Counted from the first letter of the stretch, positions 1,141-10,433 are shown. The stretch is DNA of 34,446 bases from Sphingomonadales bacterium (GCA_019455285.1 JACFMS010000027.1:1-34446); one strand, 5' to 3'. The notes: generated by a model from the letters alone, not told the origin. Program-made: numbers and translations.

Positions 1141-1261
1141 TTGATTCATTGTCTCCCGGCGCCCTCTAAAATTGGGGGAGACAAAACTGCTTTGGCGTCA
1201 GAAGGCCTTCGGTTACCCTGAAGCTGGATCTACGGGACCAGCGGCAGCCGGAGGCCACATC

Positions 1262-3040
1262 GTGCAGGCGGAAAAAACGCGCGCAACGCTCCTCAAAAAG
1301 CCCTTGAGCGCCGCCGGCCGGACGCCAAATCTCCTTGATTACAAAGCCGAATGTGCCCGATTCGACTGGCGGAAGGCCTGGGCGCTGCTGGATGGCTTGC
1401 CGGGCGGTCAGGGTTATAACATAGCTCATGAGGCGGTTGATCGCCATGCCGCCGGTCCTCGGGCCGAGCGGGTGGCCATTCGCTGGCTCGGCAAGGCGGG
1501 CGAGCGCCAGGACATCACCTACCGCGGGCTCAGCGAGGCCGCCAATCGCTTTGCCAATGCGCTCTATACCCTCGGCGTCAAGCCGGGTGAGCGGGTCTTT
1601 ATCCTGATGGGCCGGCTGCCGGAGTTTCATGCGGCGGTGTTGGGCGCGCTCAAGGCGCGGTGCGTGGTCTCGCCGCTGTTTTCCGCCTTCGGGCCGGAGC
1701 CCATCGCCACCCGGATCGGCATGGGCGACGGACGGGTGCTGGTCACCACCGCTGATCTTTACCGACGCAAAGTGGAAGGCGTTCGACCCAAACTGCCGGG
1801 TCTTGTCCATGTCATCGTGGTCGGTGGCGACGCGCCTGAAGGGGCGGGCCTTTATGCCTGGGATGAACTGGTGGAGCACGCGTCTGCCTCGTTCACCATC
1901 GCGCCCACTGATCTGGAGGAGATGGCGCTCCTCCATTTTACCAGCGGCACCACGGGGCGGCCAAAGGGTGCCATACATGTTCATGGCGCCGTGGCCGCGC
2001 ACCACGTGACCGGGCTTTATGCTCTCGACCTCCATGACGACGACATATTCTGGTGTACCGCCGATCCGGGCTGGGTCACCGGTATGAGCTATGGCATCAT
2101 TGCACCCTTGACCAACGGCGTCACCAGCATTGTCGTCGAGGCGGAATTTGATGCTGCAACCTGGTATTCGGTAATGGCGCGAGAGCGGGTAAGCGTGTGG
2201 TACACCGCGCCCACCGCCATACGGATGATGATGCGGCTCGGCGCGGCAGCGGTGAAGGATTATGACCTCTCGGCGCTGCGCTTCCTGGCCAGCGTCGGCG
2301 AGCCCCTTAATCCCGAGGCGGTGGTGTGGGGTATGGAAGCGTTCGGCCTGCCATTTCACGACAACTGGTGGCAAACCGAGACCGGCGGCATCATGATCGC
2401 CAATTTCGCTGCGCTTCCCATCAAGCCGGGCTCCATGGGCCTGCCGCTACCGGGCATCGAGGCCGCCATTGTGCGTCGCCGCAACGATGGTGGTGTCGAT
2501 GTCGTCGATGAGCCGTTGATCGAGGGAGAATTGGCGCTGAAAAAGGGCTGGCCGTCAATGATGCGCGGCTATCTTAATGAGGACGAGCGCTACCGCAAAT
2601 GCTTTAGCGGCGACTGGTATCTGACCGGCGATCTCGCCAAGCGCGATGCCGATGGTTATTTTTGGTTTGTGGGCCGGTCCGACGATGTCATCAAGTCGGC
2701 GGGACACTTGATCGGCCCGTTTGAGGTGGAAAGCGCTTTGATGGAGCATCCGGCGGTGGCGGAAGCAGCGGTAATCGGCAAACCCGATCTGATGGTGGGT
2801 GAGGTGGTCAAGGCCTTTGTGGAGCTCAAGCCCGGCTACGAGCCCAACGATGACCTGCGAAAGGAGCTTCTCGGCCATGCCCGCAAGCGCTTAGGACCCG
2901 CCGTCGCGCCCAAGGAGATTGATTTTCGCGCCAATCTGCCCAAGACTCGCTCCGGCAAGATCATGCGGCGTTTGTTGAAGGCGCGGGAGCTTGGCCTGCC
3001 GGAAGGGGATATCTCGACCCTGGAAAGCGATGAGAAATGA
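1262..3040 (+). CDS. acsA: Acetate-CoA ligase, AcsA type (AMP-forming)
   Basis: This is an adenylate-forming ligase of 592 residues that would activate acetate (or a short acid) to acyl-CoA through an acyl-AMP. Visible motifs are the P-loop-like [10 protein letters not shown] near residues 227-236, the [10 protein letters not shown] block, [18 protein letters not shown], the [20 protein letters not shown] hinge, and [12 protein letters not shown] with the catalytic lysine at about 566. The C-terminus ending [12 protein letters not shown] closely follows Bacillus AcsA as I remember it. I chose GTG 1262 because GGAGG (1250-1254) sits seven bases before it; an in-frame TTG at 1172 lacks such a site and would add 30 unconserved residues. 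It overlaps the E1 alpha gene by 4 nt. Next to acetoin/pyruvate dehydrogenase genes it could recycle acetate formed from acetaldehyde. Confidence 0.88.
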
Positions 3041-4023
3041 GCGACAAGGTTCATCTAGATCGTGACCATGGCCAGCATCTGTTGCGCGAGATGCTGCGCA
3101 TTCGCCGTTTCGAGGCCAAATGCGTCGAGCTTTACCAGGCGCAGAAGATTCGCGGCTTTTTGCATCTTTACGATGGCGAGGAAGCGGTGGCGGTGGGCGT
3201 CATGCAGGCGCTCGATGCGCGCGATGCTGTCGTCTCCACCTATCGCGATCATGGCCACGCTCTGGCGCGCGGCGTCGATATGGGATCGTTGGTGGCAGAG
3301 ATGTATGGCAAGGTTGAAGGATGCAGCAGAGGGCGAGGCGGCTCCATGCATTTTTTCGATCGCGCGAAGCGTTTCTATGGCGGCAACGCCATCGTCGGCG
3401 GCGGCCTGCCGTTGGCCGTCGGCATTGCGCTTGCCGACAAGGAGCTTCGCGCCGGCGCCGTTACCGTCTGTTTCTTCGGCGAAGGCGCGGCGGGCGAGGG
3501 CGAATTTCACGAGAGCTTGAATCTTGCCGAATTATGGAAGCTGCCGGTGTTGTTTGTTTGTGAAAATAATCTTTACGCCATGGGTGTTCCGCTGGAGGAG
3601 GCGGAGGCCGAAACCGATATCTACCGCAAGGCGGCCGCTTATCGCACCCCCGCTGAAAAGGTGGACGGGATGGACCCGATCGCGGTGGAAGCGGCGGCGC
3701 GCCGAGCGGCGGCGTCCATCCGCTCCGGCAATGGCCCCTATTTTCTTGAGTGCCGTACCTACCGCTTCCGCGCCCACTCCATGTTCGATGCTCAGCTATA
3801 CCGCACCAAGGAGGAGGTAGAGCTGTGGAAGAAGCGCGACCCCCTTCCTCGCCTCCAGACATGGCTGGTGGAAAACAACATGCTATCGGAGGAAGAGTTG
3901 CGGCGCATGGAATCGGAGATCGATGCTGAGATCGTTGCGGCGGTGGCTTTTGCCGAAGCAGGGCAATGGGAGGCGATCGAAGATCTGGAACGATTCGTGC
4001 TGATGGATGAGGCGCCGGAATGA
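3037..4023 (+). CDS. 2-oxoacid dehydrogenase E1 component, alpha subunit (pyruvate/acetoin type)
   Basis: This 328-residue thiamine-diphosphate enzyme subunit would form the alpha half of an E1 heterotetramer that decarboxylates a 2-oxoacid such as pyruvate, or cleaves acetoin, and passes the acyl group to lipoyl-E2. The N-terminal [20 protein letters not shown], the GGSMHFF segment (101-107) and the TPP/Mg motif starting at GEG 148-150 and ending at NN 177-178 are clear. The motif has Glu where most relatives have Asp (GDG); the conservative change also occurs in some homologues I recall, so activity is likely. The start ATG overlaps the acsA stop (ATGA), and the end overlaps the E1 beta start in the same way. 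Pyruvate and acetoin subfamilies cannot be separated by eye. Confidence 0.9.
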
Positions 4024-5027
4024 ACGCCGAGAAGGGAACGGCAGCCCCATTACGCATGACCTATCGCGAGGCCTGCCGCCAGGCAATTCGCGAGGCGCTT
4101 GCCGGCGACCCTAAGACCTTCATCATGGGCGAGGATGTGGGGCTTTACGGCGGCTGTTATGCCGTCACCAAGGGATTGCTGGAAGAATTCGGGCCAATGC
4201 GAGTACGTGATACGCCGCTCGCCGAAAGCGCCTTCGTGGGGGCAGGGATCGGCGCGGCGCTCGCCGGTATGCGGCCCATCGTGGAAATCATGACCTGCAA
4301 TTTCAGTTTACTGGCGCTGGATCAAATCTTGAACAATGCGGCCACCATATCGCACATGTCTGGCGGGCAATTTGCGGTGCCGCTGGTCATTCGCATGGCC
4401 ACCGGCGCCGGCCGCCAGCTCGCGGCGCAGCATTCGCACAGCCTGGAAGGGTGGTATGCGCATATTCCCGGTTTGAAAGTGCTGGCTCCCGCCACGGTGG
4501 AAGACGCGCGATATATGCTAAAAGCTGCGCTCAACGATCCCAACCCGGTGCTGATCTTCGAACACATCGTGTTATACAATGCCGAGGGCGAGCTTGATCC
4601 ATCAGTAACGGCAGTCGACATCAGCACGGCCAAGGTGCGGCGGCCGGGCCGGGCTGTGACGATCCTCGCCTACGGCAACAGTCTGCCCAAGGCGCTGCAA
4701 GCGGCGGATGAACTGGCGCGCGACGGTATCGATGCAGAAGTTATCGATCTGCGCGTCTTGCGGCCGCTGGATAATGCAACAATCTTTCAGTCCGTCACCA
4801 AGACGCGACGCTGCGTCATCGTCGATGAAGGCTGGAAAAGCGGCTCCATCTCCGCCGAAATCGCGGCGCGGCTGTCGGAGGATCTGTTCTTTGAGCTCGA
4901 TGCGCCGATACGCCGTATTTGCAGCCGCGAGGCGCCTATTCCTTACGCCGCGCATCTGGAGGCGGCAGCCTTGCCGCAAATGCCGCATATTGTTGACGCT
5001 GCGCGCCGCTTGGTGAGGCCGGCATGA
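4020..5027 (+). CDS. 2-oxoacid dehydrogenase E1 component, beta subunit
   Basis: The 335-residue partner of the preceding alpha subunit. The pyrimidine-binding domain shows GEDVGLYGG (37-45), [11 protein letters not shown] with the catalytic Glu at 69, and a long conserved stretch from [18 protein letters not shown] to [19 protein letters not shown]. The C-terminal transketolase domain follows from about residue 200 ([25 protein letters not shown]). Length and domain order match PdhB/AcoB proteins. It is translationally coupled on both sides by ATGA overlaps. Substrate preference (pyruvate, acetoin or another 2-oxoacid) cannot be decided here; a branched-chain specificity is less likely given the PDH-like motif spellings. 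Confidence 0.9.
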
Positions 5028-6202
5028 GCGATTTTGTCATGCCCTCATTGGGCGCGGATATGGAGAAGGGCACCGTTGTCGAATGGCGGATCAAGCCGGG
5101 CAGCGCCGTGAAAAGGGGGGATGTGGTCGCCGTGGTGGAAACCTTGAAGGGGGCCATTGAGGTTGAGATTTTCGAGGAAGGGACTGTTGCCGAGCTGATC
5201 GCCAAGGAAGGGCAGGAGGTGCCGGTGGGCGGCGTGCTCGCCCGCATCACCAGGCCGGGCGAGACGGCGCCCGCGCAGCCGGCACCTCAGCCGCCGCTGC
5301 CGGCAACTCCACAGCCCAAAATACCGCCGCCGATCATCTCCGTCACTGCACCTTCCGCACGCGTCAAGGTGTCTCCGGCGGCTCGCCGCCGGGCGGCGGA
5401 GCGCGGCATTGATCCTGATAGGCTCACAGGCACCGGGATCGATGGTTCGGTGACGCTGGCCGATGTGGAAGCCGCGCCAGCGCCCACGCCGGCGGAAGCT
5501 GCGCTGCCGAAGGCGGCAAAACCGCGCTGGGGCTTCGAGCCGAGCGAAATGCGGCAGGCAATAGCGGCGGCGGTGTCACGCTCCAAGCGGGAAATCCCTC
5601 ACTATTATCTGACCACCACCATCGACATGAGCGCCGCGCTGCATTGGCTGCAAGCCTACAACAAGGAGCGGCTACCGGATAAGCGGCTGTTGCCCGCCGT
5701 ACTGGCGTTGAAAGCAACGGCCAAGGCGCTGCGCGAGACGCCGCAACTCAACGGATATTGGGAAAGTGGCGCATTTCGCGCCATGGAACGGATCAATATC
5801 GGCTGGGCGGTATCCTTGCGCGGCGGTGGACTGATCGCGCCGGCGCTGCGCGACGTGGATCGCATGACCCTGCCAGAGGTGATGGCGGCCTTGCGCGATC
5901 TGGTCGCCCGCGCCCGCGGCGGCGGTTTGCGCAGTTCCGAGCTGACCGATCCCACCTTCACCGTGACGAGTTTGGGCGACCGTGGCGCGGAATCGGTGAT
6001 CGGCGTCATCTACCCGCCGCAAGTGGCGATCTTAGGGTTGGGGCGCATTTCCAAACGCCCCTGGGTCGTCGATAACCAAGTAGCGGCCCGTCCCTTAATG
6101 GCGGCGTCGCTCTCCGCCGACCATCGCGCCAGCGATGGCCATACCGGGGGGCTGTTTCTGGATGCACTCGATCGCTTGCTGCAGGAGCCCGATGCGTTAT
6201 GA
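5024..6202 (+). CDS. Dihydrolipoamide acyltransferase (E2) of the 2-oxoacid dehydrogenase complex
   Basis: The 392-residue E2 has one N-terminal lipoyl domain (1-76) with the lipoylated lysine in [10 protein letters not shown] at K42, a proline/alanine linker (80-110), a peripheral-subunit-binding domain (about 113-149, [21 protein letters not shown]), a second flexible linker, and the catalytic core from about 165. The core ends with SADHRASDG, giving the active-site H367 and D371. The enzyme would pick up the acyl group from E1 on lipoate and transfer it to CoA. The lipoyl sequence ETLKG is AcoC-like rather than the ETDKA of standard PDH. No E3 gene lies nearby, so a housekeeping E3 must reoxidise it. 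It overlaps the acyl carrier protein gene by 4 nt. Confidence 0.92.
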
Positions 6203-6435
6203 ACGAATCCGATATCCGCAACCTTATCTTTGATGTTCTGTCCGGTATCGCGCCCGAGGCTGACCCCACTAAACTCGCCGGGACGGTAGACCTTCGCGCG
6301 GCGCTGGACCTCGACTCGATGGATTTTCTTAACTTCGTCATTGCGCTATCGAAGCGCATCAGCGTCAATATCCCCGAGGCGGATTACCCCAAGCTCTTCA
6401 CCCTCAACGGCGCCATCGCCTATCTAGCCAAATGA
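6199..6435 (+). CDS. Small acyl carrier protein coupled to the E2 gene
   Basis: A 78-residue protein of typical acyl-carrier size. LRAALDLDSMDFLNFV carries the phosphopantetheine-attachment motif DSM with Ser40; helix I (ESDIRNLIFDVLSGIAP) and the C-terminal helix (LFTLNGAIAYLAK) fit the four-helix ACP fold. It starts inside the E2 stop codon (ATGA), so its translation is coupled to the dehydrogenase complex. This suggests that acyl groups made by E1-E2 could be handed to a carrier protein rather than, or as well as, to CoA; that is inference. No ketosynthase or phosphopantetheinyl transferase lies in the window. Its 3' end overlaps a decayed antisense receptor remnant. Confidence 0.85.
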   Translation: MNESDIRNLIFDVLSGIAPEADPTKLAGTVDLRAALDLDSMDFLNFVIALSKRISVNIPEADYPKLFTLNGAIAYLAK

Positions 6436-6608
6436 CGAGTATGTCGGCGTTCGTACTGAACGCTCAATTCAAGGCCATAGGTCCGCGGCATGTCGTGCAT
6501 GCCCTGAATCATACCAAAGGATTCTCCGACATCGATCAGATAGGATCAATAAATCTTATCGGCGATGTTACGCACCCAGCCGCCCGCAGTTCCTGGGTAA
6601 AAGTTCAT
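6422..6608 (-). pseudogene. Remnant of a TonB-dependent receptor C-terminus (antisense)
   Basis: Read on the minus strand, the frame gives GGWVRNIADKIY, an in-frame TGA, then SYLIDVGESFGMIQGM and MPRTYGLELSVQY. The WVRNI.DK.Y block and PRTYGLEL ending are the last two strands of TonB-dependent receptors; the intact receptor at 10755 ends with PRTYGLELTYKW. The normal aromatic C-terminus is lost: the frame runs on through ERRHTRHLAR into the end of the acyl carrier protein gene before stopping. Everything upstream of about base 6608 is missing, replaced by SDR debris. This is a dead fragment, not an expressed gene. Confidence 0.72.
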
Positions 6609-6611
6609 TGA

Positions 6612-6903
6612 TCGACGCAAGCCAGGTCGCGGATGCTGTTGGCCAATGGCGGATCGGTTATCAATATCTCACCCGTCGCCGGGCAGCATCGAGACGACCA
6701 TGGTGCCGCCGGATCATCCCGAACGTAAAATCTCCGCCGCCTATTGCCCGCTGGGGTGGATCGGCAAGCCGGAGGAAGTAGCGGCGCTCGCCCATTTTCT
6801 GGCAAGCCCTGACAGCGCCTACCTGACGGGCCAAGTGATTACGCTGGACGGCGGCATGACGGCAGGCTTCACTGGACGCGCCATCGAACTGGCTGTCGGG
6901 TAG
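6612..6903 (+). pseudogene. Decayed short-chain dehydrogenase/reductase, internal deletion
   Basis: Two pieces of a classical SDR are joined. Frame one (6612-6683) encodes STQARSRMLLANGGSVINIS and then PVAG, the helix-4/strand-5 region with the catalytic-serine strand. The sequence then shifts frame into SPGSIETTMVPPDHPE...GWIGKPEEVAALAHFLAS...YLTGQVITLDGGMTAGF, the C-terminal cofactor-closing part that ends at TAG 6901-6903. The roughly 45 residues between them, including the YxxxK active site, are absent, and so is the whole N-terminal Rossmann half. The join falls at GTCGCCGGG, where both halves could share bases, suggesting a deletion at microhomology. A second fragment of a similar SDR lies at 10172. 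Confidence 0.75.
6643..6683 (+). repeat. Left copy of a 41-nt direct repeat from an SDR gene
   Basis: This segment encodes NGGSVINIS and PVAG of the SDR remnant and matches 10164-10204 in the same orientation at 36 of 41 positions by hand count, with a perfect 15-base run GTTATCAATATCTCA. The two copies bracket the heme-copper reductase operon. Confidence 0.7.
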
Positions 6904-6979: not shown

Positions 6980-6993
6980 TTGATCTAGATCAA
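6980..6993. promoter_or_regulatory. Perfect FNR/Dnr/FixK-type box upstream of the nor-like operon
   Basis: TTGATCTAGATCAA is an exact match to the CRP/FNR-family consensus TTGAT-N4-ATCAA and forms a 16-bp palindrome with one flanking base on each side (6979-6994). Its centre lies about 58 bases before the ATG at 7045. An activator at -41.5 would place the transcription start near 7028, leaving a short leader that contains the Shine-Dalgarno site. Control by an oxygen- or NO-sensing regulator (FNR, ANR, Dnr, FixK or NnrR type) is therefore likely; which one cannot be told. Confidence 0.8.
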
Positions 6994-7044
6994 GGACTTC
7001 CGCTGACCCAGCACCAAACTTTCCGCAGATTGGGGAGGTGGCCA

Positions 7045-7578
7045 ATGACTGTGCAAACTGTGTCCCTATTGCTGTCTGCGGCGGCGATTCTCATACTCGC
7101 CGCCGTATTTCTCCGGGTACGTGTTCTTGCCCATGCTGTTGAAGACTATGCCCCCGTTCAGGGGCGTGCCTATCGCATCCGCGCCATCGCGTTCTGGCTG
7201 ATGCTGCTGGTCGGGCTGCCGATCAGTATTTGGCTCCTGCGGGATATGCCTTACGAGGCGGACGCTACCGAAGCGCAGATTGTCAATGCGACAGCGGCGC
7301 AATGGTATTGGGAACTCGACCGCGAGGATGTCTCTCTTAACCGGCCAGTCGAGTTCCATGTGGCGAGCATGGATGTCAACCATGGCTTCGGCATCTATGA
7401 CGCAGCAGGGCGATTGGTCGCCCAAACGCAGGCGATGCCGGGCTACGTTAACCGCCTAGTACACAAGTTCGACGCGCCCGGTACTTACCGGGTGCTCTGT
7501 CTTGAATATTGCGGACTGGCGCATCACGGCATGATGGCCGAGGTTATCGTCAGCGAAACAGGAGGGAGCGATGGCTGA
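7045..7578 (+). CDS. norS: CuA-containing subunit II of an sNOR-type nitric oxide reductase / heme-copper oxidase
   Basis: A 177-residue membrane-anchored cupredoxin subunit. Two transmembrane helices (about 5-25 and 48-66) form a hairpin, followed by a periplasmic domain. All CuA ligands are visible: His113 in MDVNHGFGIYD, then Cys152, Glu154, Cys156, His160 and Met163 in LCLEYCGLAHHGM. It would accept electrons from a soluble cytochrome c or cupredoxin and pass them to the heme centre of the partner subunit. ATG 7045 follows GGGGAGG at 7032-7038; an in-frame TTG at 7030 is less likely. It overlaps the subunit I gene by 8 nt. The short length and the order II-I-SenC-membrane protein match norSY-senC-orf1 clusters; automatic annotation would probably call it cytochrome c oxidase subunit II. 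Confidence 0.8.
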   Translation: MTVQTVSLLLSAAAILILAAVFLRVRVLAHAVEDYAPVQGRAYRIRAIAFWLMLLVGLPISIWLLRDMPYEADATEAQIVNATAAQWYWELDREDVSLNRPVEFHVASMDVNHGFGIYDAAGRLVAQTQAMPGYVNRLVHKFDAPGTYRVLCLEYCGLAHHGMMAEVIVSETGGSDG

Positions 7579-9031
7579 GGCATATACAACGGCGGGCGCG
7601 AAGGTGACGGCCGCTGATCGGGGGCGGTTGTGGGTGACCCTCTATCTGGCGGTAACCGGGATCGTGCTGCTTCTAATGATGACGCTCGGACTTTTGATGC
7701 GGCTCGCGCAAAGCGATATTCTTACTCTTGATCCCGCGCTCTTCTACCAAATGATGACCGTCCACGGCACCGGCATGGTGGGGATCGCGGCGCTTGGCGG
7801 CATGGCGGTGATGTGGCACTTCCTGTCGGCCCATGTGAGGCTGCATGGCTGGGTGCTGGGGGTGAACCTGGTGCTTTTCCTGGCGGGGGTGGTAGCAATT
7901 CTTGCAGCCGACTTCCTGGGCGGCTTCGGTGGCGGCTGGACGTTCCTTTATCCCCTACCGGCCACTTCGGGGGCCGTCTGGCCCACCTGGGCGGCGGCCC
8001 TGCATCTATCCGGGCTTCTGGTGATTGGCGTGGGGTTTCTGATCGTTTGCCTTGAGATCGCGCGGGCGATCATTGTCGGCTACGGCGGGCTTGGCCGCGG
8101 ACTTGGCTGGCACGTGCTGTTTGCAAACAGCACGGAAAATGTCCCGCCGCCGACGGTCGTCGCCTCGACGATGGTGGTGATCGTCACTACGCTCGCACTC
8201 ACCGCAGGGGCGGCGATCCTGGTCATGAGTCTGATCAATATTGCTTTTCCGGAGATTCAGATTAATCCGCTTTTGGCCAAGAACATGACCTACTTCTTTG
8301 GTCACGTCTTCATCAATGCCACGATCTACATGGCGGTTACGGTGGTCTATGAACTGCTGCCGCGGATCACCGGGCGGCCCTGGAAAACCAACAAAGTGTT
8401 CCTCGCAGCCTGGACGTTATCCACGACAATGGTGTTGGTCATCTACCCACACCATCTGCTGATGGACTTCGCGATGCCGACCTGGATGATGGTGATTGGC
8501 CAAGTGTTATCTTATGTCAATTCCTTCCCGGTGCTGATCGTAACGGGACTGGGCGCGCTGGCGATTCTGCACCGATCGGGCATCCGCTGGGACTTGATCT
8601 CGACGTTGCTGCTGATCTCGATGTTCGGCTGGATGGCGGGGGTAATTCCCGCAGTGATCGATGCCACGATCACGGTCAATTCGGTGATGCACAATACGAT
8701 GTGGGTACCCGGACACTTCCACTTCTATCTGCTGCTGGGGCTGCTGCCGATGCAGTTCGCCTTTATGATCTATCTGGCGCGGGGCGAAGATGTGACACCG
8801 CAGGGCGGCGACATGACGGCGATCCTTTATCTACTATTCGGGCTCGGGTTTGTGGGTATGTTCCTGATGGGTGGCTGGGCCAGCGTGCCCCGCCGCTGGG
8901 CGACGCATCTTCCCGAATGGCTGATCTGGGATCAGATCGCATCGGTCATGGCGGTGGGAGTGATCGTGCTCGCAACTGTCTTTGTGCTAAAGTTTCTCAC
9001 CCGTATGCCCAGGATACTGCAGGAGGCGTGA
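7571..9031 (+). CDS. norY: Heme-copper subunit I lacking the helix-VI tyrosine, probable sNOR nitric oxide reductase
   Basis: A 486-residue polytopic protein with about 12 helices. Heme and copper ligands are all present: His65 (helix II, TVHGTGM), CuB ligands His245 (FFGHVFIN) and His294-His295 (YPHHLLMDF), and His382/His384 (WVPGHFHFYL) for the high- and low-spin hemes. In oxygen-reducing A and B types the residue four after the helix-VI histidine is the cross-linked tyrosine (GHPxVY); here it is Asn249. Loss of that tyrosine is a mark of NO-reducing branches. With the neighbouring senC and orf1, this points to the sNOR class described in ammonia oxidisers, reducing 2 NO to N2O. GGAGGG sits four bases before the ATG. 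Oxygen reduction as the main role cannot be excluded without biochemistry. Confidence 0.78.
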   Translation: MAEAYTTAGAKVTAADRGRLWVTLYLAVTGIVLLLMMTLGLLMRLAQSDILTLDPALFYQMMTVHGTGMVGIAALGGMAVMWHFLSAHVRLHGWVLGVNLVLFLAGVVAILAADFLGGFGGGWTFLYPLPATSGAVWPTWAAALHLSGLLVIGVGFLIVCLEIARAIIVGYGGLGRGLGWHVLFANSTENVPPPTVVASTMVVIVTTLALTAGAAILVMSLINIAFPEIQINPLLAKNMTYFFGHVFINATIYMAVTVVYELLPRITGRPWKTNKVFLAAWTLSTTMVLVIYPHHLLMDFAMPTWMMVIGQVLSYVNSFPVLIVTGLGALAILHRSGIRWDLISTLLLISMFGWMAGVIPAVIDATITVNSVMHNTMWVPGHFHFYLLLGLLPMQFAFMIYLARGEDVTPQGGDMTAILYLLFGLGFVGMFLMGGWASVPRRWATHLPEWLIWDQIASVMAVGVIVLATVFVLKFLTRMPRILQEA

Positions 9032-9035
9032 ACGG

Positions 9036-9623
9036 ATGCGCGCGGCGCTAGCGACGGTCGTTGTGGCCGGCCTTGGAGCTGCAGCTTTCTGGTGGGGGAC
9101 TGAAGGGGGGATGGCCCTTACTTCGGAAGCGGCGCGGCGGCTCGATATTGCCGCTGCGCCGCGAATGCTGCCTGATGTGCCGCTTTATGACCAGACAAGC
9201 GCGAAGTTGCAGCTCTCGGACTATCGCGGCGCGCCGGTGGTGCTGGAATTCATCTATGCCACTTGTCCTGATGTCTGCCTGACGCTCGGCACCGCCTTTG
9301 AACGGCTGGACGCGGTTTTGCCGCCCGGCGTGCCGCTGCTCAGTCTCAGTTTCGATCCGGCGGATGGCCTGCAACGGCTCGGCTGGTTCGCCAATCGGCA
9401 TGGGGCGGAAGCTCCGCATTGGCGGGTAGCGGGGGTCAAGGATCCCAAGGCGAGGGCAGCACTGCTTGAGCGCGCCGGCGTCGTGGTGATACCAGACGGC
9501 GTGGGCGGTTTTGTCCACAACGCGGGGCTATACCTCATTGACGGTAAAGGTCGGCTGTCTCGTGTATTTGATCCTGAAGATACTAAAGGCGTGCTTGATG
9601 CGCTCTTGGTTATTGAAGGCTGA
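9036..9623 (+). CDS. senC: SCO1/SenC family copper chaperone
   Basis: A 195-residue protein with an N-terminal membrane anchor (about 3-20) and a thioredoxin-like periplasmic domain. The copper-binding CPDVC gives Cys77 and Cys81, and the third ligand is His161 in FVHNAGLYLID. SCO proteins deliver or reduce copper for the CuA site of heme-copper enzymes, which fits the CuA-bearing subunit II encoded two genes upstream. AGGAGG precedes the ATG by nine bases and only four bases separate it from the subunit I stop codon, so it belongs to the same transcript. SenC in third position is a defining trait of norSY-senC-orf1 clusters. Confidence 0.85.
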   Translation: MRAALATVVVAGLGAAAFWWGTEGGMALTSEAARRLDIAAAPRMLPDVPLYDQTSAKLQLSDYRGAPVVLEFIYATCPDVCLTLGTAFERLDAVLPPGVPLLSLSFDPADGLQRLGWFANRHGAEAPHWRVAGVKDPKARAALLERAGVVVIPDGVGGFVHNAGLYLIDGKGRLSRVFDPEDTKGVLDALLVIEG

Positions 9624-10170
9624 GGCGCGCATCGGCGTTGGCGCCGTATTGGCGGCGGCGGCGCTCCTGCCGCCTTTGGCAGGACTGCTTGAGGGGCAGC
9701 TTGTCACTCACCTGCTCTGCCAGTATCCCCTGCTTGTCGGCGGTGGGGCCATGATCGGCGCGACGCTTGCCCTGACGCGGCTTGCCAATTGGACAGCGCC
9801 ATCGGCGCTGCTTGCCGGGACGCTTGCCTGTGTCTTCTGGCTCGTCCCGCGATGGATAGATGCGGCGCTTGCCGATCAGGCCGTGAATGCCGCCAAGGCG
9901 GTCTGTCTTGTGATACTGGCGGGCCTGCCGCTTGGCTGGGGATGGGCGCAGGCGGGGCCAGTGCTCCGGGGCTTCGTTTGGGCCAACGCCACAGCGATGC
10001 TTGCCGTTATGGGCTGGCTGCAATTGGCGACGCCCATCCGCCTTTGCAACAGCTACCTGCTGAGCGAGCAACGCGACCTTGGCCTTGCATTGCTGACGCT
10101 TGCGATACTGGCGCTGATCGCTGGAATGAGTCGGGCCATGCTTGGTCAGTGGGGTCGCCCTATCCAATAG
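9598..10170 (+). CDS. Polytopic membrane protein, orf1 of the nor-like operon
   Basis: About 190 residues with five to six hydrophobic helices (VGAVLAAAALLPPLAGLL, PLLVGGGAMIGATLAL, AVCLVILAGLPLGWGW, ATAMLAVMGWLQLA, LALLTLAILALIAG). I know no enzymatic motif; THLLCQYPLL and TPIRLCNSYLL carry the only obvious metal-capable residues (His, Cys). It starts inside senC (26-nt overlap; ATG 9598 with AAAGG eight bases upstream), so it is translationally coupled. Its place matches the uncharacterised orf1 of sNOR clusters, where an assembly role is usually supposed. Its last bases, CCAATAG, already belong to the SDR-derived repeat at 10164, so the native C-terminus may have been altered at that junction. 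Confidence 0.68.
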   Translation: MRSWLLKAEARIGVGAVLAAAALLPPLAGLLEGQLVTHLLCQYPLLVGGGAMIGATLALTRLANWTAPSALLAGTLACVFWLVPRWIDAALADQAVNAAKAVCLVILAGLPLGWGWAQAGPVLRGFVWANATAMLAVMGWLQLATPIRLCNSYLLSEQRDLGLALLTLAILALIAGMSRAMLGQWGRPIQ

Positions 10171-10204
10171 CGGTTCAGTTATCAATATCTCATCCGTCGC
10201 CAGG
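10164..10204 (+). repeat. Right copy of the 41-nt SDR-derived direct repeat
   Basis: It matches 6643-6683 at 36 of 41 positions, same strand. It starts within the last codons of the membrane-protein gene and supplies its TAG stop. In its own SDR frame it reads NSGSVINISSVAR. Confidence 0.7.
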
Positions 10205-10433
10205 TAGGTCATCGTTCCCGGCTACGGTCAATATGCGGCATCCAAGGCGGCGGCGGACAGCTTGACGGCAGACAACCGCCTTATCGGCGGCTCGAAATGG
10301 GTGTGCTGTGCTTTTGGCAACTGCTTGGCGGCTGTGGCCGCTGCCGCCCGAGCCGTTGCGCTGGCTGGCCTATCAGGCGCTGATCAAGCCCCTGGGATGG
10401 AAGTACGCCCTCCTCGATCGTAAAATCGGCTAG
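10172..10433 (+). pseudogene. Second decayed SDR fragment plus an unidentified C-terminal fragment
   Basis: From 10172 one frame gives GSVINISSVAR, an in-frame TAG at 10205, VIV, and then PGYGQYAASKAAADSLTAD, which is the SDR active-site helix with YxxxK (YAASK). This is the very portion that the fragment at 6612 lacks. After about 10270 the SDR similarity fades. A different frame then reads LPPEPLRWLAYQALIKPLGWKYALLDRKIG to a TAG at 10431-10433; it looks like a genuine protein end but I do not recognise its family. No start codon, ribosome site or complete domain is present, so I regard 10172-10433 as gene debris. Confidence 0.65.

Follow-up and report, generated by a model that had tools for sequence, protein, structure and literature searches.

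The window, that is, the whole stretch of 34,446 nt analysed here, comes from the genome of a Sphingomonadales bacterium (GCA_019455285.1; JACFMS010000027.1) and carries an operon of four closely spaced plus-strand genes, norS–norY–SCO–orf1, at 7045–10170. A palindromic box precedes the operon, which is flanked on both sides by fragments of a gene for a short-chain dehydrogenase (SDR):

6643–6903, plus strand: remnant of an SDR gene, internally deleted; the gene is intact (287 aa) at the same place in a congener.
6980–6993, no strand assigned: perfect FNR/NnrR/DNR-type palindrome, TTGAT-CTAG-ATCAA, ending 51 nt before the norS ATG.
7045–7578, plus strand: norS, encoding a 177-aa subunit II with two N-terminal transmembrane (TM) helices and a CuA cupredoxin domain (Pfam COX2, 2.2e-07).
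7571–9031, plus strand: norY, encoding a 486-aa heme–copper catalytic subunit I (Pfam COX1, 1.8e-43).
8315–8317, plus strand: AAT codon for Asn249 of NorY, four residues past helix-VI His245.
9036–9623, plus strand: gene for a SCO/SenC protein with CxxxC (C77, C81) and H161 (Pfam SCO1-SenC, 2.6e-06).
9598–10170, plus strand: orf1, encoding a 190-aa membrane protein with five TM-like segments and invariant W81, P84, G109, C150 and Q158.
10164–10266, plus strand: another piece of SDR sequence (GSVINISSVA...YAASKAAADSL), which forms a direct repeat with the upstream remnant.

The norS gene starts at the ATG at 7045, behind a GGGGAGG motif, and the upstream TTG at 7030 is unnecessary as a start. 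norY overlaps norS by eight bases, and the orf1 ATG at 9598 overlaps the 3′ end of the SCO gene. In profile searches, orf1 matched neither Pfam nor NCBIfam, and no NCBIfam model exceeded its cut-off for any of the operon proteins, so that an annotation pipeline would at best name oxidase subunits here. The first-pass annotation had warned that the genes would be misread as cytochrome oxidase, and this is what has happened to their relatives in Ruegeria and Thermomicrobium, whose annotation reads cbb3-type oxidase subunit I; the KEGG name for sNOR is likewise coxA (PMC11388526).

Residues were defined from a published description (PMC3475470) and from an alignment made in this analysis. The relatives of NorY are the best 80 of 362 from a pattern scan of genome contigs, and the comparisons cover 84 usable NorY, 85 NorS and 78 SCO sequences. 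The six histidine ligands of NorY (65, 245, 294, 295, 382 and 384) and Asn249 lie exactly where the first-pass annotation placed them and are shared by 84/84 sequences; because the relatives were found with patterns that omitted residue 249, this invariance is not due to chance. K237, N238 and Y253 are also invariant, and Y260 is conserved across the family. Helix-VII Y292, which adjoins the histidine pair, is Tyr in 77/84 sequences, a count biased upward by the presence of this residue in one of the scan patterns, and Phe in the remaining seven, close relatives among them. The CuA site of NorS is complete, as had been claimed, with ligands H113, C152, C156, H160 and M163 kept in 84–85 of 85 sequences. 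C77, C81 and H161 of the SCO protein are present in 78/78, and the five orf1 residues vary little or not at all. Two members have disturbed norY frames: on a Parasedimentitalea plasmid (L012, 5866–7322) norY occupies two overlapping frames with no annotated CDS and is frameshifted or misassembled, and in a metagenome-assembled genome (L058) one in-frame stop falls within the extracted NorY frame.

The residue four positions after the helix-VI histidine (+4) is Asn in all 84 NorY sequences and Tyr in the A (6/6) and B (11/11) oxidases sampled. At +11 (NorY residue 256), Val is found in 81/84 sNOR sequences, in 4/4 eNOR-like sequences and in the single bNOR sequence (1/1), and Tyr in all 11 B oxygen reductases sampled; the +15 Tyr is kept. 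The +11 change from Tyr to Val may thus offer a second diagnostic site for NO reductases.

We placed NorY in a maximum-likelihood tree of 59 heme–copper subunits I, 25 of them sNOR, with A, B, C, cNOR, qNOR and eNOR-like references and the Schinkia type I NOR. The 25 sNOR members form a single clade (100/100) that contains the operon's NorY together with NorY of Nitrosomonas and Nitrococcus, and NorY stands apart from every Tyr-bearing oxygen reductase clade sampled. Within the clade it pairs with the congener copy and then with those of Roseovarius, UBA6213 and Sinisalibacter. The deeper branching is less firm, and sNOR may be sister to the B/eNOR group or to A + B: the best tree groups A with B/eNOR at only 84/33, and a tree with sNOR, eNOR, bNOR and ba3 as one clade is equally likely (AU p 0.49). 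A tree and an inspection of helix VI had both been proposed in the first-pass annotation, which named a place in an oxygen-reducing clade with Tyr from another helix as a refutation; as far as sequence shows, this is not what is seen.

Other class assignments were considered and set aside. NorY is not a cNOR or qNOR: it lacks the combination of a helix-VI Glu (HxxxE) with NorC or a fused N-terminal domain, and the cNOR/qNOR clade is separate. Nor is it a cbb3 (C-type) enzyme, as Val288 stands where those enzymes have Tyr, six residues before the histidine pair, and the C clade is separate (100/99). Asn at +4 in 84/84 sequences likewise dismisses a B-family oxygen reductase with a cross-linked Tyr. 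A tyrosine might instead come from another helix, and the candidate considered is Y292; it precedes the histidine pair by two residues, where the cbb3 Tyr precedes it by six, and its replacement by Phe in 7/84 members argues, as far as sequence allows, against an obligate replacement cofactor. Judged by sequence, membership of the operon in the sNOR family is established; NO reduction, the donor, the regulation and the physiological role are inferred. The AlphaFold model of NorY, built from 61 aligned sequences, has a heme–copper oxidase fold (pLDDT 87.9, pTM 0.90) and in Foldseek matches bovine COX1 (subunit I) with a TM score of 0.81 and Thermus ba3 with 0.72. The solved folds nearest to the model are thus oxidases, and fold alone does not tell NO reductase from oxidase.

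The gene order was said in the first-pass annotation to be that of ammonia oxidisers, and it does correspond to the norSY-senC-orf1 cluster listed for them (PMC4940428), with the same active site and a place in one clade. The order norS–norY–SCO–orf1 occurs in nearly all 80 loci, with SCO or orf1 undetected in a few, and recurs in Nitrosomonas (L083, L085), Nitrococcus (L090) and Schinkia azotoformans (L077). The Nitrosomonas sNOR shares with the operon the four genes, their order, the +4 Asn, the CuA subunit and the clade; its NorY is 52–53% identical and its orf1 is homologous to that of the operon at 31–32% identity. It differs in its host, an ammonia oxidiser as opposed to the heterotroph-looking bacterium here, and the operon's closest kin are copies from Rhodobacterales (74–80%). 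Type II qCuANOR of Bacillus (Schinkia) azotoformans (L077/L138), a cluster with Asn for Tyr, a two-TM-helix subunit II, SenC and a 4–5 TM protein (PMC3475470), is alike in all these features, but its identity is about 49% and its host is Gram-positive. The B-family ba3 oxygen reductases resemble the operon in fold, CuA subunit II and the six histidines, whereas they carry Tyr at +4 and +11 in place of the Asn and Val of sNOR.

The listed relatives include Nitrosomonas communis, Nitrosomonas sp. Nm132, Nitrococcus mobilis, Schinkia azotoformans and many Bacillus-like genera, as well as Arthrobacter, Roseovarius, Pseudoalteromonas and Thermomicrobiales, and the operon's NorY is 49–80% identical to sNORs of many heterotrophs. 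The host does look heterotrophic, as the first-pass annotation remarked, but the occurrence of sNOR in heterotrophs is already published, and sNOR is found across Bacillota (PMC11388526). The operon thus adds one sNOR to a published type, and a heterotrophic host for it has precedent.

The palindrome upstream of norS is the only exact TTGATN4ATCAA in the whole window. The congener has it too, again at 51 nt, and Sinisalibacter has it at 48 nt; in four Rhodobacterales loci it is kept or nearly kept, at 48–65 nt. If up to one mismatch is allowed, the box occurs in 8/85 upstream stretches, compared with 1.6% of control stretches, and seven of these eight are the window, the congener (counted twice) and Rhodobacterales relatives. 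A Fnr box common to the whole sNOR family was accordingly rejected, as it is found almost wholly in the Rhodobacterales relatives. The box at 6980–6993 probably serves a Crp/Fnr regulator that responds to anaerobiosis or to NO. In the family at large, Rrf2 regulator genes are frequent neighbours, at 28 loci, as are formate/nitrite transporter genes, at 26. Both adjoin the Ruegeria pomeroyi megaplasmid copy, the Rrf2 gene divergently, where the window instead has the Fnr-type box; this copy shares the gene order but is more distant (about 50% identity).

Within the order, norY is present in 1/99 relatives searched, the congener (96% identity), and absent from the other 98; across the class it occurs in 5/385 sampled genomes, the window's own included. 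Among the relatives listed, the closest kin are the Rhodobacterales copies (Sinisalibacter, Roseovarius and UBA6213), with the same gene order and 74–80% identity. Given these nearest kin and the 98/99 order-level relatives without norY, the operon was likely gained horizontally, probably before the two congeners split. The flanking SDR pieces share a 44-nt direct repeat (86%), and alignment places the downstream duplicated fragment in both the window and the congener. The position of the operon between duplicated pieces of one gene is probably an insertion footprint. Further upstream, a block with acetate–CoA ligase and pyruvate-dehydrogenase-like genes (1148–6453) has no counterpart at the corresponding position of the congener (L021:2075–2084), which marks the region as plastic.

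The first-pass annotation had noted that no denitrification genes lie nearby. This holds within the 34-kb window but not genome-wide: the host genome (3.3 Mb, 57 contigs, 100% complete) carries narK–narGHJI on contig 14 and nirS on contig 15. There nirS adjoins an eNOR-like heme–copper oxidase with Gln at +4 (L113:2579–11520, minus strand), in a stretch that also holds ctaB, SCO, a cytochrome b–ferredoxin fusion and a hemerythrin, so that these genes form an apparent NirS–eNOR cluster. A canonical qNOR on contig 56 (L115:5258–8086, minus strand) adjoins an Rrf2-family regulator gene, possibly NsrR-like. In all, six genes of the COX1 family are present in the host: A type, cbb3, eNOR-like (HSSQQ), qNOR, a second qNOR-like gene and norY. 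nirK was not detected in the genome, and neither was nosZ with three models, of which the first two matched controls (pHG1 plasmid, Schinkia) and the clade III model had no control over its cut-off. With narGHJI and nirS present and nosZ undetected, the host is by gene content a truncated denitrifier.

In helix VII of the second qNOR-like protein (774 aa; contig 50:31559–33880, plus strand; L116:4560–6884; L005), HH has become HN (AHNFYW), with Asn for a His metal ligand; Gln replaces Glu (LQVVP), and two quinol-site positions carry Gly. The copy in the congener shows these changes as well and is 95% identical, and the best plasmid match of the protein reaches only 39.5%. In its residues, the protein matches the nitric oxide dismutase signature given in PMC3413370. 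The host's other NO enzymes, this dismutase-like gene above all, lie outside the window and are more unusual than the sNOR operon itself.

We consider it likely that the operon encodes an sNOR, a type II CuA nitric oxide reductase that converts NO to N2O. As Asn replaces the Tyr of the Tyr–His cofactor, the usual tyrosyl radical for four-electron O–O cleavage is not possible, and the site fits two-electron NO chemistry. In our proposal for the substrate, electron donor, regulation and role of NorSY, CuA of NorS would receive electrons from a one-electron donor in the periplasm, either cytochrome c or a cupredoxin, and they would travel by way of the low-spin heme to the heme/CuB centre of NorY, where two NO would be coupled and reduced to N2O and H2O. 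The SCO protein, probably a copper chaperone for the CuA site of NorS, would load the copper, and orf1 would probably act as an assembly or accessory membrane subunit. An Fnr-family regulator would probably turn on expression at low O2 or in the presence of NO. NirS would produce NO, and sNOR would be one among several NO-removing enzymes of this truncated denitrifier. To our knowledge, sNOR has never been purified.

Purified NO reductase is known from a related type, and it could be asked whether the operon belongs there, to bNOR/qCuANOR type I, instead of sNOR. Type I shares with it the CuA subunit, the +4 Asn, the +11 Val and a SenC gene nearby (PMC3475470). The Schinkia azotoformans type I NOR (L135), on contig 42 of its genome (G100), was matched by contig and coordinates to cbaA1 on contig42, which is identified with purified qCuANOR (PMC3475470). 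It carries Asn at +4, yet it nests in Bacillus B oxidases (100/100) and not with NorY, and a tree in which the Asn of sNOR and that of type I arose once is rejected (AU p 0.018). Moreover, NorS resembles type II in its two TM segments, where subunit II of type I has one TM helix plus a small peptide (PMC3475470). We therefore give almost no weight to a type I assignment. Type I has a separate origin within the B oxygen reductases, so that the Asn arose at least twice; on the tree, the Tyr-to-Asn change of sNOR is convergent with that of the enzyme identified with the purified NO reductase.

That convergence also bears on a more serious alternative, that NorSY is mainly a high-affinity terminal oxygen reductase in which another radical or electron donor replaces the classical Tyr and NO reduction is a side reaction. 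Such a role has been raised for sNOR on the grounds of strong induction in O2-limited Nitrosomonas europaea and of CuB-type ligands, with copper, not iron, at the site, and the Nitrococcus evidence for a NO reductase that the same paper cites is indirect (PMC6967387). The proximity of the model to oxidase folds favours it too, an FNR-type box is equally compatible with microaerobic expression, and the conserved tyrosines Y253, Y260 and, in most members, Y292 may count against a NO reductase role. So may the host's possession of two or more further candidate NO reductases, which would make NO removal by sNOR redundant. Yet no member of the family (0/84) has the +4 Tyr, Y292 gives way to Phe even in close relatives, the same Tyr-to-Asn change marks the CuA-NOR identified with purified enzyme (PMC3475470), and oxidases of the A and C types are already available to the host. 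On balance, we regard a primary oxidase function as unlikely. A decayed, non-working oxidase might be suspected from the fragments of a broken SDR gene that flank the operon; however, all four frames are open and 90–96% identical to the congener, every ligand is kept and the upstream box is perfect, which makes decay highly improbable. A working sNOR that reduces NO remains our preferred reading, which is favoured as well by the +11 Val common to sNOR, bNOR and eNOR-like proteins, by the frequent Rrf2 and formate/nitrite transporter neighbours, and by nirS and narGHJI in the genome.

More tentatively, the host genus may have an unusually layered NO economy, with nirS-linked eNOR, qNOR, a horizontally gained sNOR, a dismutase-signature protein and no detectable nosZ, and loss of Tyr at +4 and +11 may be a two-site mark of B-related NO reductases; we see this as possible but doubtful. 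If such an economy exists, sNOR would help to set the share of NO that goes to N2O as opposed to N2 and O2. Where sNOR genes are annotated as cytochrome oxidases, N2O-forming capacity is overlooked. The operon shows that the sNOR family spreads between orders, and a genome that holds sNOR, eNOR, qNOR and a NO-dismutase-like protein together would be a good setting in which to examine why a bacterium retains several enzymes for NO removal, and whether the substrate that sNOR reduces is NO, O2 or each of them.
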